NCBI GenBank assembly: GCA_023250955.1
Contig: JAHEZQ010000039.1
Coordinates: forward strand, 1 to 36,029
Direction: 5' to 3'
Length of the DNA stretch: 36,029 nucleotides
Source of the DNA: Melioribacter sp.
Lineage (GTDB): Bacteria; Bacteroidota; Ignavibacteria; Ignavibacteriales; Melioribacteraceae
Part shown: positions 2,361 through 36,029 of the stretch, in pieces
How positions within the stretch are numbered: position 1 is the first letter of the stretch
Layout: every line of letters begins with the position of its first letter
Made by a program: the position numbers and the translations under genes
Notes under the pieces: generated by a model
Told to the model about the DNA's origin: nothing
What the model saw: only the letters and a program-made list of their open reading frames with translations
The model's database searches: none

Positions 2361-2865
2361 ATCCTTTAAGTATCTTCTTATTTAAAATGAGAGGTTCATC
2401 AAGATTATTATTTAAATGATCATCTAGTTTATCAATATTTAAATCAGATGGTATTGATTCATTTTTAATTTTATATAAAAATGAAACATATTCTTTTTCT
2501 GTCATATGACAACCTTTATTTAAATAAACTTTAGAATTTGAATTCATTGGATAAACGTAAAAATATTTATATAATCCAAATTCGTCAACTTTATTATTAA
2601 ATCTATTTAAACCTGGAAAAAAATAATAAACTAAAAAATAAGGAATATTTAATTTTTTAGCAATTTTTAATTGACATTTTATTTGAAAATTATTTAAATC
2701 TGTTTTATAGTGGAAACCATGTTTTGTTTCCACCATTATTTGAGGCTCACAATTTTGATCATATTCTATCATGTCGACATCCGTTGCATATAGTTTTGCT
2801 CCCCATTTTCTGTGATTATCATTATATTCTTCATTTGTAAAGTTTAAGAGTTTTTCTATTGTCAT
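2356..2865 (-). CDS. PD-(D/E)XK-like nuclease
   Basis: 169 residues. The segment at residues 20-50 reads KWG....YATDVDMIEYD....PQIMVETKHG, with acidic residues D29/D31 followed by E46-x-K48. This is the core of the PD-(D/E)XK nuclease fold, and a Gln-rich helix at about 60-70 fits the usual helix after that core. The C-terminal 60 residues are polar and unassigned. No good ribosome binding site precedes the ATG. The gene abuts a GIY-YIG gene (stop TAA, then TTG) and lies between two GIY-YIG paralogues, so a part in homing, host DNA breakdown or repair is possible. The family call comes from motif geometry only. Confidence 0.6.
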   Translation of the reverse strand: MTIEKLLNFTNEEYNDNHRKWGAKLYATDVDMIEYDQNCEPQIMVETKHGFHYKTDLNNFQIKCQLKIAKKLNIPYFLVYYFFPGLNRFNNKVDEFGLYKYFYVYPMNSNSKVYLNKGCHMTEKEYVSFLYKIKNESIPSDLNIDKLDDHLNNNLDEPLILNKKILKGY

Positions 2866-2932
2866 ACATATATATCATGTAATGCACAGATATACAAAAT
2901 ATTTTAAATAAAAGTGAAAATAAATTTAATAA

Positions 2933-2948
2933 TAAAAATTTTTCATTT
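2933..2948. repeat. 16-bp inverted repeat, left arm
   Basis: This arm (TAAAAATTTTTCATTT) is the exact reverse complement of 3136-3151. The arms are 187 bp apart and enclose the GC-rich stretch. The AAAAATTTTT core is itself palindromic. Confidence 0.85.
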
Positions 2949-2971
2949 GTCGAGCATTGTTTTTATTTAAA

Positions 2972-3028
2972 CTCGCGCGCGCTCCCGCGTGTGCCTGCGC
3001 GTGTACCTGTGTGCGTGCCCGCGGGCGT
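2972..3028. other. Alternating purine-pyrimidine GC stretch (Z-DNA-like)
   Basis: About 57 bases made mostly of CG, TG and CA steps, for example CGCGCGCGC followed by GTGTG and GCGTG runs, stand out sharply from AT-rich flanks. Alternating purine-pyrimidine DNA of this kind can adopt the Z form under negative supercoiling. No open reading frame explains it. Confidence 0.8.
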
Positions 3029-3135
3029 AAGATCTTATATATACGGAAAGCAATTCGTAGTTCCTCCGAATATCATCCGTTGGATTTTATTTTCCTTCGT
3101 CAAATTTTCATAAATTCAAATTTACTTGAAAAATA

Positions 3136-3151
3136 AAATGAAAAATTTTTA
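3136..3151. repeat. 16-bp inverted repeat, right arm
   Basis: Exact reverse complement of 2933-2948. It lies next to the G6 tract of the adjacent stem-loop. Confidence 0.85.
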
Positions 3152-3153
3152 CT

Positions 3154-3220
3154 GGGGGGAATATTTAATGTTTTTTGTTGATAACGAATATTTTATTCGG
3201 GATAAATACTAGACCCCCCC
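3154..3220. other. Nested stem-loop with G6/C6 base
   Basis: GGGGGG at 3154-3159 can pair with CCCCCC at 3215-3220, and TATTTA at 3162-3167 with TAAATA at 3203-3208. Inside lies a second hairpin, CGAATA (3185-3190) with TATTCG (3194-3199) and a 3-base loop. Downstream on the plus strand are A and C runs rather than a T tract, so it is not a standard terminator in that direction. Confidence 0.55.
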
Positions 3221-3265
3221 GAAAAAACCCCAAAAATTCGTGGTTTCTTTTTGACTTTAATGCTT

Positions 3266-3946
3266 TTAATTTAAACGTGTAACTTTATATTTCTTGTTGA
3301 TTATTTTATTTTTGCTTATTGCTCTAGAAATGTAGGTTTTAGATACTTTTAACGCTTTTGCAGCATCTAAATTTGATTCATAAACTGTTTCAATGCTAGT
3401 TTCTAATTCTGTGACAAGAACAGTTTTAAAAGAATTTTTATTACCTTTTTTAGCTTCAGATAATTTATTTTTAGTTTCTTGAGAAAATTTTATACCTTTT
3501 CTAGCTATACCTATTTTATTTTTATGTTCTTGAGAAATTTTTATACCTTTTTTAGCTGTAGACATTTTATTTTTAGTATCTTGAGAAAATTTTTTACCTT
3601 TGTGAGCTTTGGACATTTTGTCTTTACTTTCTTGAGAGAGTTTATGATTATCTCCGCCTTTTTTAATATTATAGCCAAAATTTCTATCAGTAGATTTAAA
3701 TTCTTCAATATAAGTCTCTTCCAAATAATTACAAACAGATAAAGAACTTGTTTGAGCTATTACTTCAAATTTAAAATTATCTATTCCATGTTTAATCATG
3801 GACGAATAAAGGTGTGGAGATTTGTTTGGTTTACATTTTGAATAATAAATATGCTGATTCCATCTTCTTTCTGGTTTTTGAAAAGTTTGTCCAACATATA
3901 TTTTATTATTAATTGTATTTGTTATTGTATAAATGTAATAATTCAA
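3266..3946 (-). CDS. GIY-YIG homing-type endonuclease with NUMOD3 and NUMOD1-like parts
   Basis: 226 residues. The GIY-YIG domain (1-100) has YIYTITN, IYVGQT, the catalytic arginine in RRWNQH (R28) and the metal-binding glutamate in LEETYIE. Four NUMOD3 repeats follow at 103-170. The C-terminus (about 187-222) contains [20 protein letters not shown], a helix-turn-helix of the NUMOD1 type for extra DNA contacts. The start is TTG with AAGGA a few bases upstream. It is a close paralogue of the 1726-2355 product, and with its complete C-terminus it is the better candidate for an active enzyme. It is the first leftward gene, reading away from the divergent promoter region at 3947-4020. Confidence 0.9.
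3437..3640 (-). repeat. Tandem units encoding four NUMOD3 motifs
   Basis: Four imperfect roughly 51-bp units encode SQ..K.K...A.KG.K motifs in the middle of the endonuclease. They match the units at 1729-2049 but are fewer. Confidence 0.8.
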
Positions 3947-3956
3947 TTAATTCCTT
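3928..3956 (-). repeat. Start-site repeat, copy B (29 bp)
   Basis: This block is identical over 29 bp to 35127-35155 and over 24 bp to 2337-2360. On the minus strand it reads AAGGAATTAATTG and on into six codons (MNYYIY). It carries the ribosome binding site, the TTG start and the first residues of the endonuclease. Confidence 0.9.
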
Positions 3957-3986
3957 TTTAAATATCTATAATAGAATGTGATACAA

Positions 3987-4015
3987 TTGATACATAAGAT
4001 ATATTTTCTTATAAT
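3987..4015 (+). promoter_or_regulatory. Near-consensus sigma70 promoter with operator-like dyad
   Basis: TTGATA (3987-3992), a 17-base spacer and TATAAT (4010-4015) make the best sigma70-type promoter I noticed in the window. Transcription would begin near 4022 and read the membrane peptide and lipoprotein genes. An inverted repeat, ATAAGA (3994-3999) with TCTTAT (4007-4012), fills the spacer and enters the -10 box, where a bound dimeric repressor would block RNA polymerase. The two RHH-like proteins in the window are possible ligands, by inference only. Confidence 0.6.
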
Positions 4016-4176
4016 ATAAAGGAATCTAATTAGAATAAAGTTTTAAAACGTTTTTGAGATTGGATGAGTACTTGGTTGATTCTTCTCTAAAAGTTAATTT
4101 AAACTTAATACAAAAGGAAGAAACTAGGTTGACATTTGTTAGCCGAGGATACAGATTGATTTTTAGGAGAGAGAAA

Positions 4177-4278
4177 ATGTTTAATATACTTGGTGGAATG
4201 TTTTTGTTTTTTATGTTGGTGATTGTTCCTTTTGCTCAATTAATTACTGGATTAGCTGAATCGGAGAAAAAGAAATGA
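4177..4278 (+). CDS. Tiny single-span membrane protein (33 aa)
   Basis: The ATG at 4177 has a strong ribosome binding site (AGGAGAG) 6-7 bases upstream. The frame is open further up to a TTG at 4054, but that start lacks such a site. The product is 33 residues with one hydrophobic helix (about residues 5-27) and a KKK end, so the C-terminus probably faces the cytoplasm. Its TGA overlaps the ATG of the lipoprotein gene (ATGA), so the two are translationally coupled. The pair, read from its own strong promoter, looks like a cell-envelope cassette such as superinfection exclusion or lysis. No family is recognised. Confidence 0.6.
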   Translation: MFNILGGMFLFFMLVIVPFAQLITGLAESEKKK

Positions 4279-4604
4279 AAAAACTATTATTGATTATTAT
4301 TTTAATGTTAGTTGGTTGTACGAATACTTTAAGTTCTAGTGAAGATGAATTTAAAAAGATTGATTTGTGTTCAAATAAATATGATGAAGTTAATAAAGTA
4401 TATAAAATTGAATTTCCTGGAAAAAGTTCTGAAGAATTAATTAAAAATACTTGGATTGAAAAATGTGATGATAAATCTTGTTATGTATATAATGGTTATG
4501 TATCTAATAATATTGCTGGTGATAGAAAATATTATAATGGATATGTAGAAGTTTCTTTTAATAATCAAGAATGTAAAGATTATTATATTGTTTATTTGGA
4601 ATGA
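4275..4604 (+). CDS. Predicted lipoprotein
   Basis: 109 residues. A classic lipoprotein signal (MKKLLLIIILMLVGC) ends in the lipobox LVGC, so C15 would be lipidated after cleavage by signal peptidase II. The mature part is about 95 residues, polar, with four further cysteines (DLCSNK, EKCDDKSC, QECKD) that could form disulphides outside the cytoplasm. Phage lipoproteins of this size include receptor-masking superinfection exclusion proteins and outer-membrane spanins. The coupled upstream membrane peptide is too short for a normal inner-membrane spanin, and the independent promoter fits expression outside the lytic programme. I favour an exclusion or conversion role, with low certainty. Confidence 0.75.
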   Translation: MKKLLLIIILMLVGCTNTLSSSEDEFKKIDLCSNKYDEVNKVYKIEFPGKSSEELIKNTWIEKCDDKSCYVYNGYVSNNIAGDRKYYNGYVEVSFNNQECKDYYIVYLE

Positions 4605-4756
4605 GAATATAATAAGGTAGGTAAATGTAGTTTTTGGGGCGGGACTTGTTTTAACCCAGAGATACTCAGGAAAAAACCTCACTAAGAGATAGAGAAAAGA
4701 AACTTTTATATAATCATTAATATTTAAAACAAATACAAAAAAATCACAAACCGACT

Positions 4757-4791
4757 CTTCTCCCCACAGCGCGGAGCGCGCATGGGGGAAG
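4757..4791. other. GC-rich hairpin
   Basis: CTTC-CCCCA (4757-4766, one bulged T) pairs with TGGGG-GAAG (4783-4791). Inside it GCGCG (4769-4773) pairs with CGCGC (4777-4781) around a GAG loop. GCGGAGCG occurs in the loop region and again at 4791-4798. This very stable structure could act as a single-strand initiation site or an RNA element. Confidence 0.6.
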
Positions 4792-4833
4792 CGGAGCGAA
4801 GCGGGTCCGGGATGTCTGTTTATACCGGTTCCC

Positions 4834-4930
4834 GGGTTTCCGGTTACCTTGGGAGCCGGAAACCGGAAACCAACTTTTATCGAGGTTTTTTCAAAAAAGC
4901 ATTGAAATAGAAAATTGTATCCGGAAACCC
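4834..4930. repeat. Iteron-like CCGGAAACC repeats
   Basis: The sites are GGGTTTCCGG at 4834-4843 (inverted), CCGGAAACC at 4856-4864, an overlapping copy at 4863-4871, and CCGGAAACCC at 4921-4930, the exact reverse complement of the first. Four copies within 100 bases suggest binding sites for a replication initiator or for the RHH regulator encoded just downstream. Confidence 0.6.
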
Positions 4931-5039
4931 AAATTGTTAACCATAATAAAAAAATTTTTTATATAAAGTCGAGATACAACTAATTGTAAGACATATAAAT
5001 AAGAATCATTCAATTCCTAAAATCCCGTCCAGGATATTC

Positions 5040-5068
5040 AAAACCCGCCTTAAATAAGCGGGTTTTTT
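5040..5068 (+). terminator. Rho-independent terminator
   Basis: AAAACCCGC (5040-5048) pairs with GCGGGTTTT (5058-5066) around a 9-base loop, followed by a T-rich tract. It would stop rightward transcripts coming from the putative origin about 60 bases before the RHH gene. It therefore either ends a short untranslated RNA or insulates the replication operon. It shares the ACCCG...CGGGT theme with the terminator after that operon. Confidence 0.75.
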
Positions 5069-5127
5069 ATTTTTTAAACTATTTTAATTTTATTTTTAAA
5101 AATGTATGCATAAGAAGGTATTCTGTT

Positions 5128-5325
5128 ATGAGACAAAAGAATATCACCTTTAAAGATGAGGAAGGTTTAAATGAAAAACTCATCATACTTTCTAAAAAAT
5201 GCCGAATTCAAAAATCGACTTTAATTAGAATTTTATTAAATAAACAATTAGAAGCCGTCAATGAGTCTGGACAACTTATTGATTTATCCAAAAAGGAATT
5301 GAATGACTCATACGAAACAGAATGA
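5128..5325 (+). CDS. Ribbon-helix-helix (CopG-like) regulator
   Basis: 65 residues. KNITFKD at 4-10 is strand-like. It is followed by a helix (EGLNEKLIILSKKC), a turn and a second helix beginning RIQKSTLIRILLNKQLE at about 26-42. This is the strand-helix-helix pattern of CopG/Arc repressors, followed by a polar tail. AGAAGG lies 9-10 bases before the ATG. The gene overlaps the RepA-type gene by 23 bp and comes first in the operon, just as small RHH repressors precede initiator genes in some plasmids and set copy number. The CCGGAAACC sites or the promoter region are its likely targets, by inference. Confidence 0.6.
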   Translation: MRQKNITFKDEEGLNEKLIILSKKCRIQKSTLIRILLNKQLEAVNESGQLIDLSKKELNDSYETE

Positions 5326-6574
5326 AAATGACACATTAGAAAGTTTAATAGATTATTTTACAGTAAATCCTACAGCAAAAACTGAAAACGATCATGAAAT
5401 AGAAGCAAAAAGAATTTCTAAGTTAAGAAAAGAGAAATCTTTAAAAAAACCAGAATTAGAACCAGAAAAATTTGACTTAAACCTATTTGGTGGAGAAAGG
5501 CTGCTTGCTTTAGCTAACCGCCCAAAGATAGATATTAATTTCCTTGTGAAGAAATTACATATTACTCCAAATGAGGTAATAAGAATAATTGGAAACCCAA
5601 ATTCTGGAAAAACATACTCGGCATTAGAGATTGCTATTGACTCAATTCTTGGATTGCCACTATTCGGAAATAGTGAATTCCAAACTGTTTTTGATCCAAA
5701 CAAGATTATTGTTTTTTTGCAACTTGAAGGCGGAAAAGAAATGACAAGGTTTAGAGTGGAAAGAATAGTTACGGGAATTTGTGAACATTATGGATTTAAT
5801 CATGAAGAAACATTTAAAAAAGTAAATGAAAGATTTTTTTTCCAATATATGCCAGCTTCAAATGTTGCTTTTAGTAATCCATCAAAGATGGATAAATATA
5901 AAAATGATCTCGCAAAACAGTATAAATCTCACAATGTTGGACAATTATTTATAGATAATCAAACTGCAATATTTAATACATCTGGATTATCTCCAAATGA
6001 TCCTATATCCAGAGTAATTCTAGACTGTTTTAAGGATGCTGCCAATATGGTATCTCATGATGTTTTTACTTGGTTTATTCACCATTTCAATAAAAATAAT
6101 ATAGATGCAGGCTCGCATCAGTTATTTGCAGCATCTGGAACTGAATTAAATATTCATTATGAGAAAGATAAGAATTTGCGCTGGATAGAACATCATAAAT
6201 CTAATTTTACATTATCTAACGATATTCCAATCGAATTCACTGGTAATGGTGCATATGATGATGATATGGAATGTACACGCGGATTATTTATCGAGGCTAA
6301 AGATAAGTCAGTAATTTTTGCTGAAGAAAAACAAATAGTAATATCACAAATATCATCATATACTGAGCCATGTAATATAACTTCGCTTATAAAAACTCTA
6401 GTAGATTCAACAAAAACTAGTGGTAATAAAATATCAAGAGACAAGGCAACTAATCTTATTAAGCAAATGATCGAAACTGGAGAAATAGTATCAGAAAAAG
6501 GTAAAAATAATTCTACTATAATTAAGATAAAACCAATTAATCACGGTGAAACATCATGGGAGGCAGCAGAATGA
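5303..6574 (+). CDS. repA: RepA-type RecA-fold replication ATPase
   Basis: 423 residues. The core shows Walker A GNPNSGKT at 97-104, a glutamate-containing strand VFLQLEGGKE at 137-146, Walker B QLFIDN at 214-219 and a sensor-like WFIHHFNKNN at 257-266. This order matches the RSF1010 RepA/AAA_25 group of hexameric replicative ATPases. The N-terminal 60 residues are charged and flexible. The C-terminus (about 350-410) looks like a winged helix that could bind DNA. The ATG at 5303 has AAGGA about 6 bases upstream inside the RHH gene. It is the only clear replication enzyme in the genome, so host polymerase and primase are presumably recruited. Whether it unwinds DNA or loads the host helicase cannot be told. 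Confidence 0.8.
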   Translation: MTHTKQNENDTLESLIDYFTVNPTAKTENDHEIEAKRISKLRKEKSLKKPELEPEKFDLNLFGGERLLALANRPKIDINFLVKKLHITPNEVIRIIGNPNSGKTYSALEIAIDSILGLPLFGNSEFQTVFDPNKIIVFLQLEGGKEMTRFRVERIVTGICEHYGFNHEETFKKVNERFFFQYMPASNVAFSNPSKMDKYKNDLAKQYKSHNVGQLFIDNQTAIFNTSGLSPNDPISRVILDCFKDAANMVSHDVFTWFIHHFNKNNIDAGSHQLFAASGTELNIHYEKDKNLRWIEHHKSNFTLSNDIPIEFTGNGAYDDDMECTRGLFIEAKDKSVIFAEEKQIVISQISSYTEPCNITSLIKTLVDSTKTSGNKISRDKATNLIKQMIETGEIVSEKGKNNSTIIKIKPINHGETSWEAAE

Positions 6575-6717
6575 AATGTAATCACGAATTTTCAGAACCA
6601 GAATATGTAGATAATGTTTACCTATTTATTTGCCAAACCTGCGGAAAGCAGAAATTTGTAGATCTTTCGGATGATATTGATTATGGGGAATTTCCGGAGG
6701 AAACAGAATCCACGTGA
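6571..6717 (+). CDS. Small zinc-ribbon-like protein (48 aa)
   Basis: 48 residues, with its start overlapping the stop of the ATPase gene (ATGA), so it is the third gene of the replication operon. It begins MKCNHEF and has CQTCGKQ at 21-27. The CxH and CxxC pairs are spaced as in a single zinc ribbon. The rest is acidic, including DLSDDIDYGEFPEE. It resembles, in its NHxF...CxxC layout, the products of 6874-7107 and 35766-35999. It may help the ATPase contact DNA or a host protein. No function can be assigned. Confidence 0.7.
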   Translation: MKCNHEFSEPEYVDNVYLFICQTCGKQKFVDLSDDIDYGEFPEETEST

Positions 6718-6772
6718 TATATAAACCAATGCAGCTGAATTTCTCAGTTGTATTTTCATCCACAATTATTCC

Positions 6773-6817
6773 AAAACCCGATTAGAAGTCATAAAAAGCT
6801 TTAATCGGGTTTTTTTA
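6773..6817 (+). terminator. Rho-independent terminator of the replication operon
   Basis: AAAACCCGATTA (6773-6784) is perfectly complementary to TAATCGGGTTTT (6802-6813) around a 17-base loop, followed by a T tract to 6817. It closes the RHH, ATPase and zinc-ribbon operon. Confidence 0.85.
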
Positions 6818-6873
6818 TTTTATTATTTATGATTTTTATTTAAATATTATGGTAATAATATTGTATAGCTTGT

Positions 6874-7107
6874 ATGACACGTATATCATCAGACTTAAAT
6901 CATAATTTCCAGGCGACTTCGTTTGGAATCGTATATAATTCATCATCAAATCCAACAATTTTATCAATCTGCAAAGGTTGTAATGCTAAAAAAATATATT
7001 TAAGTGGACAAGGCGAATGGTTCGAAATAAATAATAAAAAATATGTAAAGGAAGAATTTTTTAATCTTACATGTGAAGAGTTTATTATAAAAGGATTACT
7101 AGAATGA
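6874..7107 (+). CDS. Small Cys protein with LTCxEFIIKxLLE tail
   Basis: 77 residues. NHNF at 9-12, CKGC at 33-36 and a C-terminal NLTCEEFIIKGLLE can be seen. The tail matches the end of the 34987-35145 product and resembles those of 35593-35769 and 35766-35999, so these small proteins form a family within the genome. The CxxC pair plus an upstream His or Cys suggests metal binding. The ATG lacks a ribosome binding site and no upstream in-frame start exists, so translation may be leaderless or weak. First of three ATGA-linked rightward genes. Confidence 0.65.
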   Translation: MTRISSDLNHNFQATSFGIVYNSSSNPTILSICKGCNAKKIYLSGQGEWFEINNKKYVKEEFFNLTCEEFIIKGLLE

Positions 7108-7310
7108 CTTCAATATTTAATGAAGAAACCGAGAAAAGAATAGAATTTATTTATAATAATGTATTTTCTGAAGTACTTACTATTCCGGAGTATATGAATC
7201 AATGTATAAAATCTTGCGGAGATATAGATAATTTAAATAAATGGCTAACTGAAAGAGAATTAGAAATAAACATAACAATGGTAGCTGAAATTAGAGGATT
7301 ACTTAAATGA
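7104..7310 (+). CDS. Hypothetical small helical protein
   Basis: 68 residues, overlapping both neighbours by ATGA. It is acidic and predicted mostly helical, with two cysteines (QCIKSC at about 33-38), no membrane segment and no motif I recognise. Translation coupling makes it part of a three-gene unit with 6874-7107 and 7307-7639. Being rightward between the replication and lysis-end regions suggests an early role, but that is context only. Confidence 0.6.
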   Translation: MTSIFNEETEKRIEFIYNNVFSEVLTIPEYMNQCIKSCGDIDNLNKWLTERELEINITMVAEIRGLLK

Positions 7311-7639
7311 AAAATAATAATGACGATAATTTAACGGAAGAAGAAAAATCAATACTTGAACCTATTTTAGAATTAGCAGTTCATGATTTTGGAATAAAAA
7401 AAGTCCCAAATTCTTACGTAGATTTTCATACTGTAGACCTAATTTGGCATCACATGTTCAGAAAAGACACGTTACTTTTTATGACTATAAAATTAGATAG
7501 ACAAACTAAAGAAGTTAAGTATATCCTTGAGACCACAAATGAGTATGGTGAACATGATCAAGAATCATTTTTAACAACGCTACAAGCTATAGATTTAATA
7601 AAAAGAAATGAAACTCAGCTTGATGGTACATTGAATTAA
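7307..7639 (+). CDS. Hypothetical protein (110 aa)
   Basis: 110 residues beginning with an acidic NNNDDNLTEEEK segment. The body alternates strand and helix, including DLIWHHMFRKDTLLFMTIKLDR at about 45-66. There is no signal, no membrane segment and no recognised catalytic motif. It is last in the rightward unit and ends one base before the end of the oppositely oriented late operon (7641), so the two transcripts converge with almost no spacer and no clear terminator between them. Confidence 0.65.
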   Translation: MKNNNDDNLTEEEKSILEPILELAVHDFGIKKVPNSYVDFHTVDLIWHHMFRKDTLLFMTIKLDRQTKEVKYILETTNEYGEHDQESFLTTLQAIDLIKRNETQLDGTLN

Positions 7640-7640
7640 A

Positions 7641-7964
7641 TTATTTAATAAAAATACTTGTCAAAAATAAGACAGTGTCGAATGCTATTAAACACCAAAA
7701 AAGGTTATTAATGCTAAATTTGATACTGTCTATTTTTTTATCCATTTTCTCATCTCTAATTTTATTAACTTCCTCAATAGATCTTACAGTATTATTTAAA
7801 CTATGAATTGAATTATTAATTGTAGATAAAGATTGCTTTATTTCAGGAATTCTGGCGTTCAATAGCAAACGCATATCTTCTGTTAAATTATATAATTGTT
7901 TATCATGATATTCTACATCAGAACGCAATTCAATTACATTGTCTTTTTTATCATTCGTGCTCAT
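7641..7964 (-). CDS. Tail-anchored coiled-coil membrane protein (XhlA-like)
   Basis: 107 residues. A polar helical region (about 1-85) with heptad-like leucine and isoleucine spacing, including SLSTINNSIHSLNNTVRSI, is followed by one hydrophobic C-terminal span (about 88-106). This matches XhlA-type lysis accessory proteins, where a cytoplasmic coiled coil ends in a membrane anchor. It is the last gene of the leftward virion operon and overlaps the holin-like gene by 14 bp, which supports a role in lysis. Sequence similarity to XhlA is not shown, only architecture. Confidence 0.6.
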   Translation of the reverse strand: MSTNDKKDNVIELRSDVEYHDKQLYNLTEDMRLLLNARIPEIKQSLSTINNSIHSLNNTVRSIEEVNKIRDEKMDKKIDSIKFSINNLFWCLIAFDTVLFLTSIFIK

Positions 7965-8301
7965 TATTAGCTCCAGGTGGCAAACTGTCTGGCAAATTCG
8001 CTTGTTTTTTTAGAAATGCCTTAAATATAGAAAAAACATATGAAGAAGCAAAACCGGAAAGTAAAGCATAGGCGATTTTTTCACCAACTAACTGTCCAGC
8101 AATTTGTCCAATTGGAGCAAAAAAAGTAATTAATAAAGATACAATTAAACTTAAACTAGGCAGAAAAACACCTGTAAATTTTTTATTATCTTTTAAATTA
8201 TTCCATTTTCCTTCTGTCCAAAGTCTTATTACATAAACAAAAATTGCAACAGTGATTGATTGAAGGATTATATTTGCGGAAAAAAAAGATTGAATATCCA
8301 T
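7951..8301 (-). CDS. Holin-like membrane protein
   Basis: 116 residues with hydrophobic segments at about 10-27, 42-67 and 74-95 and a short charged C-terminus (KKQANLPDSL...EHE). Three spans and a small size fit a class I holin, which forms lesions in the inner membrane at the end of infection. It follows the large fibre gene through a one-base TAATG overlap and is followed by the XhlA-like gene. No endolysin gene is seen beside it, which is unusual and lowers confidence. A membrane protein with another role is possible. Confidence 0.55.
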   Translation of the reverse strand: MDIQSFFSANIILQSITVAIFVYVIRLWTEGKWNNLKDNKKFTGVFLPSLSLIVSLLITFFAPIGQIAGQLVGEKIAYALLSGFASSYVFSIFKAFLKKQANLPDSLPPGANNEHE

Positions 8302-10451
8302 TAATAGTTCCTAAAATCAAAAATTGGTTGAAAATGTTGAGATGCAGCTGTTCCTCTCAAATCTGCTAACGCATAAGATGTAGCCAAATTAGAGGCTGTA
8401 GTGCTAAATATGCCAAATCCGGGTCTTAAACAATTACTTTGATTAACTGTTGATCCAAACTGTCCAGAAAATACTGGCATACTGCTAGCTAAAACCACGT
8501 TACTCATTGTAATCCACGAAGGACCTGTTAAATTCGAATTAGATAATAATCCAACTACATAATTTCCAGCTGGCATATTTACATTTATTGGAACAACAAT
8601 ATTTTTAAATCCATTAATGAATTGACTTGAAACAGTTCCAGTCATAGTTATTGTAGTACCAACAGAACCAGAGCTTAATAAAGATAGTGAAGTTCCGTTT
8701 ATAGAATAAATTCCAAGTCTAGCAGCAAGTTGAAATGCATAAGAGCTATTACTTGAAACTGAACAAGTATTAGATAAAAACAAATTACAATTAGAAAAAC
8801 TATAATTTGTTTGAACATCTAATGGGAAAAATATAGGAAATTGATCTAATTGAGTTGCATTATTACTGTATATATTGCTAATATTTCCTAATGCACTTAA
8901 TGTACCACCACTTTGCGTGTATGAAAAAGAAGCAGTTAAAGTATTATTATTCATACCAAATGAAATATTATTTGAATTATTAAATACTACTAGACCAGTG
9001 GAAGCTACTTGAGTTCCAGCCGAAATTTGCTGAATATTACTTTGGGTTTGTACAGTTTGAACAGGAGCAGAAATTACAATGCCACCAACTGATGCGCCTA
9101 CAGATACCGCTCCAGCTCCATAAGCCAACATTCTACTTGCATTAATTGTAGAATTTGATTGATTTGTAGTATTTCCAAACGCTAATAACTCTTGACTCAT
9201 AACTGCAGTAAGAGTACTTCCATTTAATCCAAAACTTAAACCATTAGAATTACTAAATACAAAATTTGTAAGATTATTTGATGTAGTGCCAGCAGAAAAA
9301 TTAACAGCGCCATTAGCACAGGATGCAGTAATAGTATTTCCATTTAAACCAAAACTTACACCATTAACATTACTAAAAGATAATTGCGATAAGTTACTAT
9401 TTGTAGTTCCAGCAGTTACTCCAACATAAGCACTTGCTGAAATTTGAAGACCATTACTATTAAATATAGTTTGTCTTCCAAATATAACGTTATTCAGATT
9501 AACAAAATTTAAATAACTTACATTATAATCTGAAGCACCAACATTCATTTGTAATAAGCGCTGAGATCCGGTTATAACAGAACCATTTAATCCAAATGAA
9601 AATCCGTTTGAATTACTAAAAGTTAAAGCAGAAAGATCATTTGATGTAGTTCCTGCAGAAACATTAACTCCTGATATTAATCCAACGGTTGAAGGAACAG
9701 TATAAGAAGCTGTAATTTGATTAGAATTAGACATTCCAAAACTAATACCATTAGAATTTGCAAATGAAACAATTCCAGACTGAGCAATTTGTGTTCCAGC
9801 GCTTGGATAGACAATTGATTGTGTTTGTACTGATTGAACTGGTACTGAAGCAGTTAAAGTTGATCCATTTAATCCAAAACTTACGCCGTTTTGATTACTA
9901 AATACTATATTTGAAAGATTATTTGATGTAGTTCCAGCAGAAAAATTAACATTTCCTCCACCACCAACTCCAGAAATAACAACGCTTCCATTTGTATAAC
10001 CTACAGATACATTTCCAGCACCATTAAAAGTTACACTTCTTGCATCAAATGTTCCAGAACTATTATTTGTAGTATTCCCAGCAGCAAAATATCCTATAGT
10101 TTGATTTGTTTGAGTAGGAACAGTATATGAACCTGTAATTGTACTTCCAGATAAACCAAATGCTAAACCGTTAGCATCTCCAAAATATATATTAGATAAA
10201 TTTTGATTAGTAGTACCAGCAGAAATATTAATATTTAATTCGCCAATAATATTTTGCCAAGTAATATTACCTGGATCTGGGTCTGTTAGCATCCAGACAC
10301 TTCCGTCATTTAATTGTACTGCTAATTTATATTTGTCAGCAATATCAAATCCAACAGCTGCATTTCTTGCATTATCATCAGCATATTCAAATGAAATAGG
10401 ACCATGAATACCTTGTGTAATGACTTGTTTTCCATGTTTTGCGGATACCAT
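8301..10451 (-). CDS. Repetitive tail fibre with shared N-terminal anchor
   Basis: 716 residues. Residues 1-58 are about two thirds identical to the start of the tailspike at 12869-14689, pointing to a common virion-attachment domain. Residues of about 70-520 consist of roughly nine degenerate 35-45-residue repeats of the type SAGTTSNNLS..FSNSNGVSFGLNGSTITAS, a Ser/Asn/Gly-rich beta-structured fibre shaft. The last 190 residues are non-repetitive and probably bind the receptor. The sequence around the start codon (GATACCATATTTTAATGC on the plus strand) is also shared with the tailspike gene. The DNA repeats could let the shaft change length. Confidence 0.8.
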   Translation of the reverse strand: MVSAKHGKQVITQGIHGPISFEYADDNARNAAVGFDIADKYKLAVQLNDGSVWMLTDPDPGNITWQNIIGELNINISAGTTNQNLSNIYFGDANGLAFGLSGSTITGSYTVPTQTNQTIGYFAAGNTTNNSSGTFDARSVTFNGAGNVSVGYTNGSVVISGVGGGGNVNFSAGTTSNNLSNIVFSNQNGVSFGLNGSTLTASVPVQSVQTQSIVYPSAGTQIAQSGIVSFANSNGISFGMSNSNQITASYTVPSTVGLISGVNVSAGTTSNDLSALTFSNSNGFSFGLNGSVITGSQRLLQMNVGASDYNVSYLNFVNLNNVIFGRQTIFNSNGLQISASAYVGVTAGTTNSNLSQLSFSNVNGVSFGLNGNTITASCANGAVNFSAGTTSNNLTNFVFSNSNGLSFGLNGSTLTAVMSQELLAFGNTTNQSNSTINASRMLAYGAGAVSVGASVGGIVISAPVQTVQTQSNIQQISAGTQVASTGLVVFNNSNNISFGMNNNTLTASFSYTQSGGTLSALGNISNIYSNNATQLDQFPIFFPLDVQTNYSFSNCNLFLSNTCSVSSNSSYAFQLAARLGIYSINGTSLSLLSSGSVGTTITMTGTVSSQFINGFKNIVVPINVNMPAGNYVVGLLSNSNLTGPSWITMSNVVLASSMPVFSGQFGSTVNQSNCLRPGFGIFSTTASNLATSYALADLRGTAASQHFQPIFDFRNY

Positions 10452-10473
10452 ATTTTAATGCCTATTTATTGAT

Positions 10474-11007
10474 TTACACTACAACGATATAACCGTCATC
10501 ATTTGTTAATATAAATCCTTCTTCATCATTAACAACTGGTAATTCTGGTTTAAATTCTAATAAATCAGAATCTGAACAATATAAAAATTGTCCAATCTGA
10601 GTTGGAACAGGTAATGGGGGCGGTGGTGGTGGTATAACTACTTCTTTCCAAACAGGTTTCGTTCCATCATTTGATAAGAAATAATTATTTGGACCAATAG
10701 GCAATGGAACCCAATTAGTTCCATTATAATAAACTATTGAACCAGCAGTTTGTCCAGTTAAGTGAAAATCTATTACCTGAGGATCAGGATATGTTCCAGA
10801 TAAATCTCCACCAGCTGGACCAGAAGGATTTCCGCCTCCACCACCACCGCCTCCTCCACCAACTCCCCAAGTTGGAGCAAATCCTTCACCATGAGTTACT
10901 AATGCATATCCATCTTGACCAGGCTCTAATCTAGTCCAATCATTTCCATCAAAATATAAAATATCTCCATATTTTGCATTTATTAAATTGTTAATAATTT
11001 TAGCCAT
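10474..11007 (-). CDS. Short fibre protein with poly-Gly and poly-Pro linkers
   Basis: 177 residues. A run of ten glycines at about 50-59 is followed by GGDLSGTYPDPQV, a motif common in phage tail fibres. Two YxGNDW/YNGTNW-type units (residues 18-23 and 93-98) look like repeated fibre elements, and PPPPPP occurs at about 126-131. The product ends IVVV, as the preceding gene's product ends in VVV. It starts by a TAATG overlap with the 474-residue gene, so the two are coupled. It is probably a slender fibre or adaptor in the receptor-binding apparatus. Confidence 0.65.
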   Translation of the reverse strand: MAKIINNLINAKYGDILYFDGNDWTRLEPGQDGYALVTHGEGFAPTWGVGGGGGGGGGGNPSGPAGGDLSGTYPDPQVIDFHLTGQTAGSIVYYNGTNWVPLPIGPNNYFLSNDGTKPVWKEVVIPPPPPPLPVPTQIGQFLYCSDSDLLEFKPELPVVNDEEGFILTNDDGYIVVV

Positions 11008-12431
11008 TATACTACAACAGCTCCATTAGTTAAGGTAGTTAGGTAATTATCATAAGCAGTCATTTCTGCAGCTGATGGAATTCTATTCAAATAAACAACT
11101 TCAAAAACTGCAACGTTTCCGTATGCAATAGTTCCAGCCGAGCCAATCGCACGACCGGCAGGAATAGAGTTACCTACGTTTCCAGTCGTTTGATTTGCGC
11201 CATATCTGAATATATCTCCGGCATTATTTGACCAATCCGCACGATATCTTGCCCACGAATTAGTTGGGCAAGTGACTGAAGTTCCGGCAATACCAGACTG
11301 AGATCTGATTAAATTAGCACCACTGGAAAGCAAGCAACCACCACCAACATTTGAGTTATCGGAAATTAAACAAGCAGTTCCGGAAAATGATAAGTATTTA
11401 GCTAGACCCAAAGCACAAGTTGGCGTTGTTCCTGGAGCCGGAAGATTAAACGCGGAAGTTAGAGAATCATTGGAACCATCAAATGTAATTGAAGGTAATC
11501 CATTTAATGTACCATCAGAAGAATTATAGACAGGTTGAGCAGAGCCAGTAGCTTGAGTGTAATTTCTTGCATTGGCAGTTTGATCAGCCCACGCAGAAAC
11601 ACCAGTAGCTATCGTGATTCCTTTGTCAGCTCTTACCCATTGAAGAACTGAAGAAGTTCCGAAGATTGAAAGAGGATTACCGTAAACAACATCAAATCCG
11701 TATCTTGATAAATAATAATTATCTAATGCAGCAATCTCAGCAGGCGATGGTTTACCTTGAGTCACAATACGTTCAGCAATTGCACCGTTCCAGAAGGCAG
11801 CGCCAGTCGTTGAGAAAATAGAAGCACCAGTGGCAGTATTTGTGCCAGAATTTAATGCACCACCAGTTAATCTACCACCAACTTTAATATAAGCTGCAGT
11901 TGTAGAATAGAGAGCTTCCATTCTTTGCCACGTATTTAGCGGCAAAATAATTCCTGAATTTACTGCAGTACCGCTATATATTGAAACGTTACCAGCGCCA
12001 GCAGCATCATAAAGATCGGTTGTTTCCGGCTGTCCGCTTCTAGAACCCCAAAGAGCAGCGTTTGCATATGATGTTTCTTTGCCAATACCGCTAATCCAGA
12101 GGTTTTGACCTAGAGGCAATGTAGTGTTTACAAGCTCAGTTGAATTAACAGCAGTAGCACTTAATGTTGGCTGAAAGTTAAGACCTGAATCAGAAGGATT
12201 ATAAACAGGTTGTTTTGCTCCTGTTGCTTGCGCGAAATTGTGATTATTACCTGACTGATCAGCCCATGCAGAAACACCAGTAGCTAGAGTAATACCTAAA
12301 TCGCCTCTAACCCATTGGAGAACGGGAACAGATTTGATTATGGTTAGTGGGGTAACTTTATTATTTCCAGGATTAACACCTTTACCTGGACCAATTCCTG
12401 AAAATAATTTTCCAACGTCATATGAAGGCAT
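11007..12431 (-). CDS. Tail adhesin with two LamG/concanavalin-like domains
   Basis: 474 residues. The body is an internal duplication. LQWVRGDLGITLATGVSAWADQSGNNH near 37-63 recurs as LQWVRADKGITIATGVSAWADQTANAR near 264-290, and each half ends with an E(R/V)-containing strand and PSxAE(I/M)xAxDNY. This layout fits tandem LamG-type jelly-roll domains, often glycan-binding in phage tails. Residues 1-30 are a Gly-rich leader. Its DNA is somewhat richer in G+C than its neighbours. It lies among fibre genes, so a receptor-binding or virion-decorating role is likely. Confidence 0.7.
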   Translation of the reverse strand: MPSYDVGKLFSGIGPGKGVNPGNNKVTPLTIIKSVPVLQWVRGDLGITLATGVSAWADQSGNNHNFAQATGAKQPVYNPSDSGLNFQPTLSATAVNSTELVNTTLPLGQNLWISGIGKETSYANAALWGSRSGQPETTDLYDAAGAGNVSIYSGTAVNSGIILPLNTWQRMEALYSTTAAYIKVGGRLTGGALNSGTNTATGASIFSTTGAAFWNGAIAERIVTQGKPSPAEIAALDNYYLSRYGFDVVYGNPLSIFGTSSVLQWVRADKGITIATGVSAWADQTANARNYTQATGSAQPVYNSSDGTLNGLPSITFDGSNDSLTSAFNLPAPGTTPTCALGLAKYLSFSGTACLISDNSNVGGGCLLSSGANLIRSQSGIAGTSVTCPTNSWARYRADWSNNAGDIFRYGANQTTGNVGNSIPAGRAIGSAGTIAYGNVAVFEVVYLNRIPSAAEMTAYDNYLTTLTNGAVVV

Positions 12432-12442
12432 TATTTATCCTT

Positions 12443-12829
12443 TTACTGCATTGATTTAATGTGGCAGGTAGCAGTAGCAGTAATGGAGCCGGATCCAGCT
12501 GTATAAACTAATCTTACCCAACGAGCAGCACTGAATAATTCTAAGAATCCACCACCAGCTCCAGAAATAGCAACATTTAAACCAGAAACTGTCGTCCAAT
12601 TTACTAAATTAGCATTAGGAGTCATAGTCTCATTACCTTCCCAATCATTACAAGTCTGTACTGACCAAGTTCCAGCAGGAGTTCCAGTCGAAGGATTACT
12701 TACCTGAAAACTAATTCCATAAACTTTGTGAATCGGGATTGGTGAACTATTAAATGTTACAGCTGAAACGTAAGCGTTAATTACTGTTCCTGAAACTGCT
12801 TCTTGTACTAAAATTCTATTTGCCTGCAT
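12443..12829 (-). CDS. Small beta-rich tail-associated protein
   Basis: 128 residues, predicted almost all beta: alternating hydrophobics, ISFQVSNPSTGTPAGTWSVQTCNDWEG at about 39-65 and a C-terminal strand pair ending CHIKSMQ. The pattern suggests a beta-sandwich domain. It sits between the tailspike and the LamG-like adhesin in the fibre block of the late operon, so a minor tail, cap or chaperone-like role is likely. No family name can be given from sequence alone. Confidence 0.55.
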   Translation of the reverse strand: MQANRILVQEAVSGTVINAYVSAVTFNSSPIPIHKVYGISFQVSNPSTGTPAGTWSVQTCNDWEGNETMTPNANLVNWTTVSGLNVAISGAGGGFLELFSAARWVRLVYTAGSGSITATATCHIKSMQ

Positions 12830-12868
12830 TATATTTCCTTATTTAAATCTGAAGGTATGTATTTATGT

Positions 12869-14689
12869 TTAATTATTGATTAATATTAGCCATCCATTTA
12901 AAGAATTAGAATACATTATTTTAAATGATATAAATCCTCCAATTATTGGAGTATACACTATATCTGCACCAGTTGCTGATAATAATCTATTTCCTACAGT
13001 AGATCCTGAATTATTATTATATAATGTTAATATTTCAGTTCCAGCATATACAAAATCAATAACTTGTCCATCAACATGTGGTGCAAATCCTGTAATACCA
13101 AATGCCGAAGTAGGACCAATAATAACTTGAAATCCTGATGATAAAGATATATTATTATTTGAACCATTAGATAGATTTATTGTTTGAGAAGGTATATTCA
13201 TACCAAATCTTGAAGTTATAAATTGAAAACTGGAAAAATTAAAATTAAGTTTTGCTGTTTGATAATCATACCACTGTACGAATCCTGAAAAATCATTCGA
13301 ATCAAACGTTTCCATAGTATTATCTGCATTAAATAATCCAGTAATACTACAATTACCATTTAAACCTTTATTTTTAACAAAGTTTCCAGAAACGATTCCT
13401 CCATAAATACCACTAATTGAAACTCCTTGACAAGCTTCAATTGTAATAACTGATAAACCAGTAGTACTAGATTGAGCATTTAAATTATATACATTTCCAG
13501 CTTGAATATTTCTAAGAATGAAAGGTTCACCAGTTAAAAAACCATCACCCATAGATACGCTTGCTTCAAAATTAATAGCTCCATCTGCTATAAGAGCTAC
13601 AGTATAATCATAATGTAAATTATATTCTGCATTTCCAAATATTTTTACATAACTTGAAGTATCTCTTGTTCTAAATGAAGGACCTAATGGAGCAGATGTT
13701 GCACAACTTTCAGTTATAATTCCTCCAACTCCACCCATTAAAAATGAATTATAACAAAGAGTAGCTGTACAATTATCTATTGTACATAGTTCACTGCTTG
13801 CAATTATAATGCCATTCATTGACTGTAAAACATCCCAATCTGTATATGTTCCAACTCCAAATGCATCGATTGGTATAAAAGTTATACTTGTACCAGATGA
13901 TGAAGTTATTGTTCCTTGTAGGAATCCATTACCAGATCTTGAACATAATAATAAATCAGTACCAATAGTATATGGAACAGTTAATGCTGAAATAGTAATA
14001 CTAACAGGAGTATTTACTACAGTGTTTATTGTTATAGATGTCGTACTAGTAGCTAATGGAATTGATGATTCATATCCATAAGCTTCTACATTATAAACTC
14101 TACAATAATTAGCATCCGTATATCCATCACCAGATATAAGGATTCCATTTTCAGGACCAGAAACAGAAGATTCTACACCAAGATCATATACAAAACAGTT
14201 ATTACAAGATACAAATTTAATACATGCAGATCTTGGAGTTCTTGGACCTGTATTTCTTAATCTAGTTCCAATACCACTAACTGAAGTTCCAACTCCTTTA
14301 AGAGTAATTCCTTCATCATGATCTAATTGAAAACCTTCTGGAGAACGATAAACTCCATTTCTAAATAAAATAGTACCAGCTCCTTGAGCTTTTAAAGCTG
14401 TTAAAAGTGAAGTATATGCAGGTAAATCATCAACTCCATTTGGTGGTGGCATTAAAAATTCAAGAGGATTTGTTGGATTTGTAGTATTTGTTATATTTAA
14501 CCAAGTTGGAACAGTAGGATCTGCAAGTAGCCAAATGCTTCCATCATCTAATTGCATTGCTAATTTATATTTGTCATAATCCTGAAATCCAGTGGCTGCA
14601 TTTCTAGCTGCAGCATTCGCATATTCAAATGCAATAGCGCCATGAATGCCAGATGCCATAGTTTGCTTTTCATGTTTAGCTGATACCAT
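12869..14689 (-). CDS. Beta-helix tailspike, probable glycan depolymerase
   Basis: 606 residues. Residues 1-58 are the anchor domain shared with the 716-residue fibre. From about 85, NGVDDLPAYTSLLTALKAQGAGTILFRNGVYRSPEGF is the start typical of pectate-lyase-like right-handed beta-helix tailspikes. About 300 residues of short strand repeats follow (including NNCFVYDLGVESS and CTIDNCTATLCYN), then a C-terminal beta domain. Such spikes work as trimers that bind or cleave capsule or O-antigen. The catalytic acids cannot be picked out by eye. It lies immediately after the ejection-protein genes, the usual place for receptor-binding genes. Confidence 0.75.
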   Translation of the reverse strand: MVSAKHEKQTMASGIHGAIAFEYANAAARNAATGFQDYDKYKLAMQLDDGSIWLLADPTVPTWLNITNTTNPTNPLEFLMPPPNGVDDLPAYTSLLTALKAQGAGTILFRNGVYRSPEGFQLDHDEGITLKGVGTSVSGIGTRLRNTGPRTPRSACIKFVSCNNCFVYDLGVESSVSGPENGILISGDGYTDANYCRVYNVEAYGYESSIPLATSTTSITINTVVNTPVSITISALTVPYTIGTDLLLCSRSGNGFLQGTITSSSGTSITFIPIDAFGVGTYTDWDVLQSMNGIIIASSELCTIDNCTATLCYNSFLMGGVGGIITESCATSAPLGPSFRTRDTSSYVKIFGNAEYNLHYDYTVALIADGAINFEASVSMGDGFLTGEPFILRNIQAGNVYNLNAQSSTTGLSVITIEACQGVSISGIYGGIVSGNFVKNKGLNGNCSITGLFNADNTMETFDSNDFSGFVQWYDYQTAKLNFNFSSFQFITSRFGMNIPSQTINLSNGSNNNISLSSGFQVIIGPTSAFGITGFAPHVDGQVIDFVYAGTEILTLYNNNSGSTVGNRLLSATGADIVYTPIIGGFISFKIMYSNSLNGWLILINN

Positions 14690-14715
14690 ATTTTAATGCG
14701 GATTTAATAGCTTAA

Positions 14716-16653
14716 TTAAATCGAACCATCTGCTACTTTTTGTATATTTGTAGCTCCAGTATTAAGTTTGGACAAACCTTTTAATGAACCTTTATTTTGC
14801 TGTTTTTCTTGTTCTTCAGAAGATTTATAAAGATCTTGTATTGCTTTAATATTATCTGCTTTAAATGAATTATCCAAAGGTTGACCAAGTAATACGCTTA
14901 ATTTTGCTTTTGTAGCAAAAGGCATTTCTTGATATTTAGGATTTACAGCTTGACTCATTATACTTGAGTGTATTTTATTATAAATAGCTGGATAAACTGC
15001 TTGAACCACTTCCATATCAGCACGATTTAATGTACCATTATGTAATTTATCTAATACTATATAAGGATTATTAATTACTTCTAATTTATTGTGGAAATTT
15101 TTAAGCTGCTCTTCATTAGGTTTCCAAGTATCTTTTGTAAATGCCATTGGAGGATTTGGATTTTTTGGCATTATTTGATTTAAATAATTTAATGCATTTA
15201 ATGAAGATTGTGAATATTGTGATTGAACTGCAGTATTATTATTAAAATGAGAAGCGTTATCTCCAATTATCTTTTGATCATTTTGGGTTGCCATATTATC
15301 AGCCAATTTAGCAGAAAGATTTTTAAAAGTTTTATAATCATCATCTTTATCATAAATATCTTTACCTAACATAGATAATACATATGGTGAAGAGCCAATA
15401 TTATTATATTTTCCTTTAGATAATGATTCTAATATTTCCGGAATTTTATTAATTTGATTTAATGAATAAAGATTAGCTTTCAACATTGCCTGTAAACCAA
15501 GTGTTTTAGCTTCTTGTGGAATCATTTTTGTAATCATATTAGCGGCTGGAGAATCATTTCCTCCAAATAAACCAATACCAGCAAGAGCGCCGGCTAAACC
15601 ATTACCACCCATAAGATGTCCAACGCCAAATCCAGTAGCGCCAGCAGCAATTATTTTACCAATAGTTTTAGAAATAACCTGATCTGCTACTTCTTGACCA
15701 GCCTCAGTTAATTTAGTAACAGGTTTTTCTCCACGAACAAATTCGTTAAGACTTTTCTGTCTTGATAATGAACCTTGATTAAATTCTTCTAATGCTTTTA
15801 ATTGCTCTTCATTAAATTTTCCAAGATCTTTTGCTCCAGATAATCTTTCTTGAGCTTGTTTTTCAGCATTACTATTTCTAATATTAACTAAATCATCAGC
15901 AGCTTTGAATTTTTCAATATCATTAGAATTAGGAACTTTTATTCCTTTATTTAAAAATTCATCAACTTTACCTAATACTGGCTCAAGAACTTCTCCAGCT
16001 TTGGTTGTAGCTTTTTTTAAACCATATAAAGTTGGACCAAATAATCCGCCAATACCAGCAGCAACCAAAAGATCTTCACCAGCAGTTTTGGGGTCCTGAA
16101 AAATAGCTTCACCAATTACATGAGGAGCTGAAATAACCGATTGTTCAACAGCTCCGCCTAATGCTTTTGCAGCAATTACTCTAGCTAATCCTATTTCTTC
16201 AGCAGCTCTTCCTGCAGTTAATGCACCTTCTGCAACACGTCCGGCAGTAGCAGCTCCTTTAAATAAAGGACCACCATAATAAAGTGAACCAATCGCACCA
16301 GCTAGTGATCCTACGGTATTTGCAGTTTGATGGAATTGTTGCAAGGCTTCATGAAGTTTAACTTCTTTTGGGTCAGCAAATTTTTTATAAGCCATTTCCG
16401 GTAAACCGAATAAAGCTTCATTACCAGCAGCTTCTAAACCAACACGCAAAGAACCGCCTATACCTTTATTTTCCTCAACAAATTTTCTCTGTTCAGGATC
16501 TAATGCGGCAAGTTTTAATTCTTCTTCAGTTGGTTGAGGTTTATTTAATTCGGCAAATCTTTGTTGTCTTTCTAAATTTTCATTAGATTTGTCAATTTTA
16601 TTATTAGAATAATCATATTCCTCTAATACAGGTTTACCATTTACTAATTTCAT
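14716..16653 (-). CDS. Ejection (internal virion) protein with hydrophobic segments
   Basis: 645 residues. The charged N-terminal 70 residues are followed by Ala/Gly-rich hydrophobic stretches at about 115-135 (TVGSLAGAIGSLYYGG), 155-215 and 335-365 (IIAAGATGFGVGHLMGGNGL). The C-terminal half is polar and helical. Podovirus internal proteins that leave the capsid and line a channel through the host envelope have this mix of soluble and membrane-seeking parts. It overlaps the previous gene by ATGA and is last of three such genes between tail hub and tailspike, matching the order in other podoviruses. No lysozyme motif is visible. Confidence 0.65.
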   Translation of the reverse strand: MKLVNGKPVLEEYDYSNNKIDKSNENLERQQRFAELNKPQPTEEELKLAALDPEQRKFVEENKGIGGSLRVGLEAAGNEALFGLPEMAYKKFADPKEVKLHEALQQFHQTANTVGSLAGAIGSLYYGGPLFKGAATAGRVAEGALTAGRAAEEIGLARVIAAKALGGAVEQSVISAPHVIGEAIFQDPKTAGEDLLVAAGIGGLFGPTLYGLKKATTKAGEVLEPVLGKVDEFLNKGIKVPNSNDIEKFKAADDLVNIRNSNAEKQAQERLSGAKDLGKFNEEQLKALEEFNQGSLSRQKSLNEFVRGEKPVTKLTEAGQEVADQVISKTIGKIIAAGATGFGVGHLMGGNGLAGALAGIGLFGGNDSPAANMITKMIPQEAKTLGLQAMLKANLYSLNQINKIPEILESLSKGKYNNIGSSPYVLSMLGKDIYDKDDDYKTFKNLSAKLADNMATQNDQKIIGDNASHFNNNTAVQSQYSQSSLNALNYLNQIMPKNPNPPMAFTKDTWKPNEEQLKNFHNKLEVINNPYIVLDKLHNGTLNRADMEVVQAVYPAIYNKIHSSIMSQAVNPKYQEMPFATKAKLSVLLGQPLDNSFKADNIKAIQDLYKSSEEQEKQQNKGSLKGLSKLNTGATNIQKVADGSI

Positions 16654-35596: not shown

Positions 35597-35769
35597 TCTA
35601 AAAGCTCCTTAATCAGCGCCTCAACACAAGTAAGCGGGCAATTATCGTCAGTGATATTTGCAATCATGGCACTCAGCGGAAATGCACAACTGTTATGGTC
35701 GCAAAGAAGCTGATTACAGTTTATGCACCTATATACGCTTTTAGATAGTTGAGCCGGTATGTGTTTCAT
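35593..35769 (-). CDS. Tiny six-cysteine protein (58 aa)
   Basis: 58 residues, read on the minus strand from the ATG at 35769, which overlaps the TGA of the upstream gene (ATGA). Its own TGA overlaps the next ATG. Cysteines lie at 15, 18, 23, 28, 44 and 48, with CINC as a metal-binding pair and the end CPLTCVEALIKELLE. That tail resembles NLTCEEFIIKGLLE (6874-7107) and ELTCDEFIIKKLLE (34987-35145). It probably binds zinc. ATGA coupling on both sides strongly supports it as a real gene despite its size. Confidence 0.7.
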   Translation of the reverse strand: MKHIPAQLSKSVYRCINCNQLLCDHNSCAFPLSAMIANITDDNCPLTCVEALIKELLE

Positions 35770-35999: not shown

Positions 36000-36029
36000 G
36001 TTTGCCATTCTCCGCGCGCGTTTTTAATT
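35791..36029. repeat. Right copy of 239-bp terminal direct repeat
   Basis: Repeats 1-239 with C at 35909 in place of A at 119. This copy keeps the reading frame of the 35766-35999 gene intact. Confidence 0.93.

Follow-up and report, generated by a model that had tools for sequence, protein, structure and literature searches.

An iteron cluster and a RepA-type ATPase gene as the candidate replication module of a small podovirus assigned to Melioribacter

We analysed a 36,029-base stretch of DNA (the window), which is a whole contig of a 3.26-Mb Melioribacter assembly of 67 contigs and which carries the genes of what looks like a short-tailed phage, a podovirus, known here from its genes alone. 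At 4757-6717 lies a compact locus that a first-pass annotation had described as a plasmid-like replicon and as the only replication module of this phage. The features found at and around it are the following, noncoding features being given without strand.

4757-4810: GC-rich hairpin, mostly at 4757-4791 (RNA fold -28.4 kcal/mol, z -3.1)
4835-4929: four exact CCGGAAACC iterons, at 4835-4843 (minus), 4856-4864 (plus), 4863-4871 (plus) and 4921-4929 (plus), from a sequence scan
4943-4967: A/T-only tract of 25 nt, a candidate unwinding element, from a letter-run scan
5040-5066: terminator between the iterons and the gene that follows (fold z -2.8)
5128-5325, plus strand: ribbon-helix-helix (RHH)-like protein of CopG/Arc type, 65 aa, candidate repressor or copy control (RHH_3, phrog_7325)
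5303-6574, plus strand: RepA-type RecA-fold ATPase, 423 aa, candidate helicase and perhaps initiator (AAA_25, phrog_3123)
6314-6571, plus strand: C-terminal domain of the ATPase, a possible winged helix (MCM_C winged helix, below cut-off)
6571-6717, plus strand: 48-aa peptide with one CxxC and an N-terminal C-N-H, a possible zinc binder, found by eye
6773-6813: terminator 3' of the three-gene unit (fold z -6.4)

The iterons are the most striking part of the module. All four exact copies of CCGGAAACC in the window sit within 95 bp, those at 4835-4843 and 4856-4864 forming a dyad, and it is the only 9-mer of the window with at least five G or C that has four copies inside 150 bp. None of 60 first-order Markov sequences contained any such clustered 9-mer, and with up to one mismatch allowed we counted 9 matches against 1.82 expected, a number reached in none of 100 shuffles. 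The four sites that the first-pass annotation had pointed out were confirmed. Its GC hairpin was found as well; folded as DNA, 4745-4860 gives z -3.3. The A/T-only tract exists but is not special, as it ranks fifth, behind four longer A/T-only runs elsewhere in the window. There is no cluster of host DnaA boxes, as TTWTNCACA occurs once in the whole window where chance would give 5.95 copies.

Neither terminator was listed by our automatic scan, which allows loops of 3-8 nt, since the loop at 5040-5066 has 9 nt and the element at 6773-6813 contains a bulge. Out of 57 genomes from this order, at least 5 contain sequence similar to 5040-5066 (G058, G005, G032, G004 and G012; 84-94% over 32-49 bases). 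Such recurrence supports the terminator call and would be expected if the host belonged to that lineage. The view that the unit has terminators of its own thus stands for the genes, which are flanked by both elements, but not for the iterons, which lie outside, upstream of the first one. Given this position, it is not evident that the iterons serve as operator for the promoter of the RHH gene.

The product of 5128-5325 is probably RHH-like, as weak calls agree in two libraries: it matches the CopG-like phrog_7325 at E 8.9e-4, whereas RHH_3, at E 0.0065, stays under the Pfam cut-off, so that the proposed CopG-like gene was recovered in the one library and fell short in the other. No NCBIfam match was obtained. 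The peptide gene called a zinc ribbon is present with its CxxC, but Pfam gave nothing better than E 0.08 for it. By eye, an H-x-F followed by CxxC can be seen in three small open reading frames (ORFs), 6571-6717, 6874-7107 and 35766-36008, whose products are perhaps one zinc-binding peptide family. A second small RHH-looking ORF, also picked out by eye, lies at 1517-1723 on the minus strand; Pfam did not match it, and PHROGs offered nothing below E 0.12.

For the ATPase, a profile search bore out the RepA-type call, with AAA_25 at E 2.9e-11 (43.8 bits against a curated cut-off of 27), and the protein is closer to the phage family phrog_3123 (E 3.6e-7) than to the DnaB-like phrog_19 (E 0.0015). 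Residues K103, E142, R151, D218, H260, H261 and K264 are invariant between it and four distant relatives; K103, E142, D218 and H260/H261 may be catalytic, by analogy with the Lys, Glu, Asp and His listed for RepA-like helicases (PMC8965321). The relatives are a 377-aa protein on contig C2 of the same genome, near genes that by eye are integrase-like and restriction-system-like, one of 431 aa in G061 and, in G058, two that are longer, the scanned one of which is a Prim-Pol/AAA_25 fusion. The C2, G061 and G058 proteins match phrog_3123 better than the window ATPase does. A profile of the four relatives, built without the window ATPase, aligned with it over 270 columns (E 7.1e-6, probability 84%), and its best solved structure was RSF1010 RepA (E 5.6e-10), with RadA at 2.8e-5.

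Could the ATPase be a RadA-like recombination or repair motor, in a phage whose replication is initiated wholly by the host? AAA_25 is a broad family with matches in 57 of 57 genomes, most of those listed being 447-500 aa long and hence, judged from size, RadA or DnaB, and a conserved arginine finger was not seen in the five-sequence alignment. The better fit to phrog_3123 than to phrog_19, and the fact that the profile of the relatives reaches RSF1010 RepA well before RadA, argue against such a motor, which we regard as highly improbable.

The C-terminal part of the ATPase was examined separately. The MCM_C winged helix reached E 0.0081 with this fragment and 0.57 with the whole ATPase, both under the cut-off. 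A structure model of the fragment has the order helix-helix-strand-strand at a mean predicted local distance difference test (pLDDT) of 68, and its fold search, with several winged-helix proteins on top and none at E <= 0.001, is suggestive of a winged helix; a profile comparison of the fragment alone gave a probability of 2.4%. The C2 relative contains an HTH_5 winged helix over the Pfam cut-off (E 1.1e-7). This relative and the Prim-Pol/AAA_25 fusion indicate that the wider family includes mobile-element replication proteins. The C2 stretch 2844-17163 combines an integrase-like gene, restriction-system-like genes and the RepA-type ATPase with its clear winged helix.

Is this ATPase found elsewhere? 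No close relative was detected in 50,697 phages, 72,556 plasmids, viral contigs, genome contigs or 95 other genomes of the order, where the scans of viral and genome contigs reach close relatives only and may have left out records of the own genome. When 394 other genomes from across the phylum were searched, part of them shared with the 95, one weak match was returned (E 7.7e-4, 23% identity). The plasmid collection gave no match at E <= 1e-5; relaxing the threshold to E <= 10 brought up 24 records, and the strongest of the 20 that were listed had E 0.06. Noncoding 4605-5127 had no match in plasmids either.

Comparison of 40 ORFs with PHROGs and 39 with Pfam (three GIY-YIG ORFs and two small ORFs with Pfam only) identified no polymerase, primase, integrase or partition protein, and RepB primase and RepC initiator had no match in the scanned ORFs. 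The scans covered 44 of the 69 ORFs of at least 60 aa, the other 25 being mostly overlapping or antisense; profiles can miss divergent proteins, and many scanned ORFs had no match at all. At profile level, the reported absence of polymerase, primase and integrase holds for the scanned ORFs; 4757-6717 is probably the replication module, and no other was recognised among them. The ORF 25900-26580, in the structural block, matched a model of the N-terminal part of DNA polymerase alpha, but this match, at E 0.047 and under the cut-off, was rejected as meaningless.

Taking together what can be read from the sequence, namely the iterons, the ATPase with its fold family and the majority of its catalytic residues, the order of the genes, the terminators and the circular contig described below, we propose, with a probability of roughly 0.55, that 4757-6717 serves as the replication module with which a small podovirus draws on the replisome of its host. 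The origin would consist of the four CCGGAAACC iterons and the AT-rich DNA next to them. The 423-aa ATPase would bind the iterons, perhaps by its C-terminal winged helix, assemble there as a ring and unwind the DNA, while host primase and polymerase would carry out the synthesis in what may be theta-type replication. The RHH-like protein, encoded in the same operon, would act as its repressor and limit the dose of the ATPase. A phage with its own origin and helicase that borrows host enzymes for the other steps would need no polymerase.

Several observations weigh against this proposal. The terminator at 5040-5066 separates the iterons from the operon. Among the four loci with ATPase relatives, only that on G058 contig C36 has a clustered 9-mer, in three copies under a laxer rule and about 3 kb from the Rep gene; the other three lack one in the 14-20 kb examined. 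An arginine finger is typical of hexameric helicases (PMC8965321), and when it was sought we found no invariant Arg after H261 in the five-sequence alignment, which is poorly aligned there. The winged helix is weak in the window ATPase and over cut-off in only one of three scanned relatives. BLASTP between the window ATPase and its C2 relative gave no match, phmmer found no relative of it in the PDB, and a structure model of the full ATPase, made without an alignment, was unusable (mean pLDDT 35). Cumulative GC skew is lowest at 35.5 kb and highest at 7.7 kb and rises over 4-8 kb, where the genes run rightward; it thus tracks gene direction and places no origin. In addition, another noncoding stretch is as odd as the proposed origin and competes with it.

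2866-3265: second odd noncoding stretch, rival origin or packaging site (alternating CG/TG tract, inverted repeat)

The alternating tract reaches a G+C of 0.75 in 60 nt at 2972, which makes it a GC-rich patch no weaker than that of the hairpin, and is flanked by a perfect 16-nt inverted repeat (2933-2948/3136-3151, 187 nt between the arms), and the stretch contains runs of G and of C. RHH proteins bind short direct or inverted repeats. If 2866-3265 were the origin or the packaging site, the CCGGAAACC sites could be left as an operator, for example for the RHH protein. However, the stretch lacks a G+C-rich 9-mer cluster, folds as DNA in an ordinary way (z -0.9) and adjoins a homing-endonuclease ORF rather than the ATPase. 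Compared with 4605-5127 it scored at or near chance, with 30 forward against a null 95% of 31 and 35 in reverse against 33 (null maximum 38), the latter alignment being nearly all A/T. We therefore think this explanation unlikely.

Three GIY-YIG endonuclease ORFs lie on the minus strand (1726-2355, 3266-3946 and 24916-25551), the first two having NUMOD3 motifs and 51-nt repeats and being 80% alike over 300 nt. At 2356-2865, also on the minus strand, a D...ExK pattern like that of a PD-(D/E)XK nuclease was seen by eye; Pfam gave no match.

How does the module compare with known replicons? The first-pass annotation had invoked pLS1 and RSF1010, and neither comparison could be upheld as a replicon type, as no rolling-circle initiator, RepB or RepC was recognised in the ORFs scanned. 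In pLS1, the order of an RHH gene followed by an initiator gene goes with a rolling-circle initiator. The gene after the window's RHH gene, unlike that of pLS1/pMV158, encodes an AAA_25 ATPase. The transcriptional repressor of the crenarchaeal plasmid pRN1 is presumably an RHH protein. The order of a small regulator and then a replication protein appears closest to that of pRN1, whose small repressor gene precedes a replication protein ending in a winged helix and whose replicon holds a stem-loop (PMC4234260). The pRN1 protein contains a primase and an SF3 helicase, unlike the window ATPase, and the essential stem-loop of pRN1 is downstream of the genes, in a replicon without iterons (PMC4234260). 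RSF1010 RepA (IncQ; PDB 1g8y, 1nlf, 1olo) belongs, through the profile of the relatives, to the same RecA-fold ATPase family, and the window ATPase has invariant counterparts of the RepA-like Lys, Glu, Asp and His; there is no direct sequence match between the two, and the window protein, at 423 aa, has an extra C-terminal part compared with the 279-aa RepA chain. RSF1010 replication also uses RepB and RepC (PMC8965321), unlike what was recognised in the window ORFs scanned.

Among phages, the lytic lactococcal sk1-like phage F13 encodes GP46, a RepA-like 5'-3' helicase identified in its early region, which pulls down host SSB, topoisomerase I and DnaK/DnaJ, so that both phages have a RepA/AAA_25-type helicase and that of F13 works with host proteins; lambda and SPP1 are named as host-dependent after initiation (PMC8965321). 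The likeness to F13 is one of description: its helicase region has ssa and ssb genes, and the excerpts of PMC8965321 mention neither an RHH gene nor an iteron cluster. Pelagibacter phage Greip EXVC021P (MT375525), whose record names a host strain, resembles the window in its 34.9-kb circular record and in its layout, with the virion genes in one leftward block of similar order by name and many of the early genes on the opposite strand. Its annotation lists 58 features, many of them hypothetical proteins, and gives to none the name of a polymerase, primase, helicase or integrase. When 12 Greip proteins were compared with 17 of the window, the terminase alone showed clear relatedness (27.6% over 156 aa, E 7e-9). 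Among the proteins of Greip are one with a DnaA_C domain and an ERF protein, and none of 10 early proteins scanned matched AAA_25. Based on the host-dependent phages (PMC8965321) and the Greip layout, the missing polymerase and integrase are no pointer to plasmid life.

The two ends of the contig repeat each other.

1-239: left terminal repeat, pairing with 35791-36029 with one mismatch
35791-36029: right terminal repeat, pairing with 1-239

The two 239-bp ends are identical except for one base, so that the contig can be joined into a 35,790-bp circle, in which the minus-strand ORF 35766-36008 runs uninterrupted across the join. The one-base difference, at 119/35909, suggests population variation or an assembly error. 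No common ends were found among the readable ends of 20 of the 66 other contigs, of which 4 were masked and most gave a single end only, so that 239 may still be an assembler word length.

A true plasmid replicon, with the virus persisting as a circular prophage and the RHH protein as copy-number control, would account for a circular contig inside an assembly assigned to one bacterium. Like a phage-plasmid, the element has a replication protein, a circular contig and no integrase recognised in the scanned ORFs, and an integrated copy was not seen in its own genome, where the matches outside the contig were only 23 nt and 34 nt long (5 of 183 and 5 of 201 first-look candidates scored). In mycobacteria, prophages are known that stay extrachromosomal and have a RepA-like protein instead of an integrase; these carry parABS (PMC7157519), whereas no partition gene was recognised in the scanned window ORFs and the plasmid searches brought no kinship for the ATPase or for 4605-5127. 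The assembly is probably a metagenome bin, so that presence in it is no proof of residence in the cell. Plasmid persistence does not follow from the data, as reliance on a single RepA-like helicase is also seen in a lytic phage of lactococci and as headful-packaged phage DNA, too, can assemble as a circle. A derivation of the unit from plasmids, and the plasmid-like persistence raised in the first-pass annotation, were not supported, with no plasmid relative found in the collection searched and no partition gene recognised in the scanned ORFs, and we consider a phage-plasmid possible but unlikely.

A narrower variant, in which the podovirus would persist on a two-gene replicon whose one protein combines winged-helix iteron recognition with a ring helicase, under RHH copy control and without its own primase, seems very unlikely to us. 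No replicon of this iteron/ATPase/RHH type was found in the collections searched, and in the literature searched no listed title or abstract start describes this combination of parts. The preferred reading of a host-dependent module is compatible with both a lytic and a persistent life. 'Plasmid-like' would then be an analogy of mechanism, neither membership of a plasmid group nor proof of a lifestyle.

The assignment to podoviruses, made already in the first-pass annotation, held up on a portal that matches a P22-type model over the cut-off (E 6.3e-12), a capsid that comes near the cut-off of a podovirus-type model (E 4.5e-20, 72.1 bits, below 80) and the product of 19890-23297, which weakly matches tubular tail protein B (27% over 15% of the query, E 5e-4) and whose best PHROG is an amidase and second an internal virion protein. 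A tape measure was not recognised among the scanned ORFs. Terminase, portal, capsid, tail and fibre-like genes are all on one strand, with the module and a few small genes opposite. By eye and position, 34459-34833 (minus) resembles a small terminase subunit; its best PHROG (E 0.0039) is a family of unknown function.

These virion genes have few relatives in the collections searched. The capsid had none in phages at E <= 0.01 or in 95 other genomes, the portal none in phages at E <= 1e-3 or in 390 other genomes of the class, and the terminase weak matches in 29 phages and 5 of the 95 genomes; viral contigs scanned with ATPase, terminase and portal, at a reach limited to close relatives, gave none. 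Searching the whole window as DNA against 57 genomes, the own one included, returned outside the contig only short and, by eye, mostly A/T-rich matches, the terminator excepted; five first-look candidates were scored per genome, so that misses are possible. A CRISPR link through the 23-nt match in contig C64 was rejected, as it lies outside any repeat array and is close to chance. Rfam gave no match at gathering scores. The G+C of 0.314 compares with 0.30-0.38 in stretches from 16 other contigs. A wildcard pattern made from the partial 16S gene at the end of contig C54 hit a single record in the genome collection, a groundwater MAG of Ignavibacteriales. The assembly is therefore probably of this order, which may also be the lineage of the phage's host, and the literature searched yielded no paper on a phage of it.

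In summary, we found a dense cluster of iterons next to an operon of an RHH-like gene and a RepA-type ATPase gene. Should it be no more than a host-dependent phage module, its principle would be ordinary, and only its parts and its lack of close relatives would stand out. If our reading is right, the locus would combine origin and helicase in a very small unit, carried by a phage whose assigned lineage is probably Ignavibacteriales, and it would offer a test case for whether a RepA-type ATPase can act as its own initiator.

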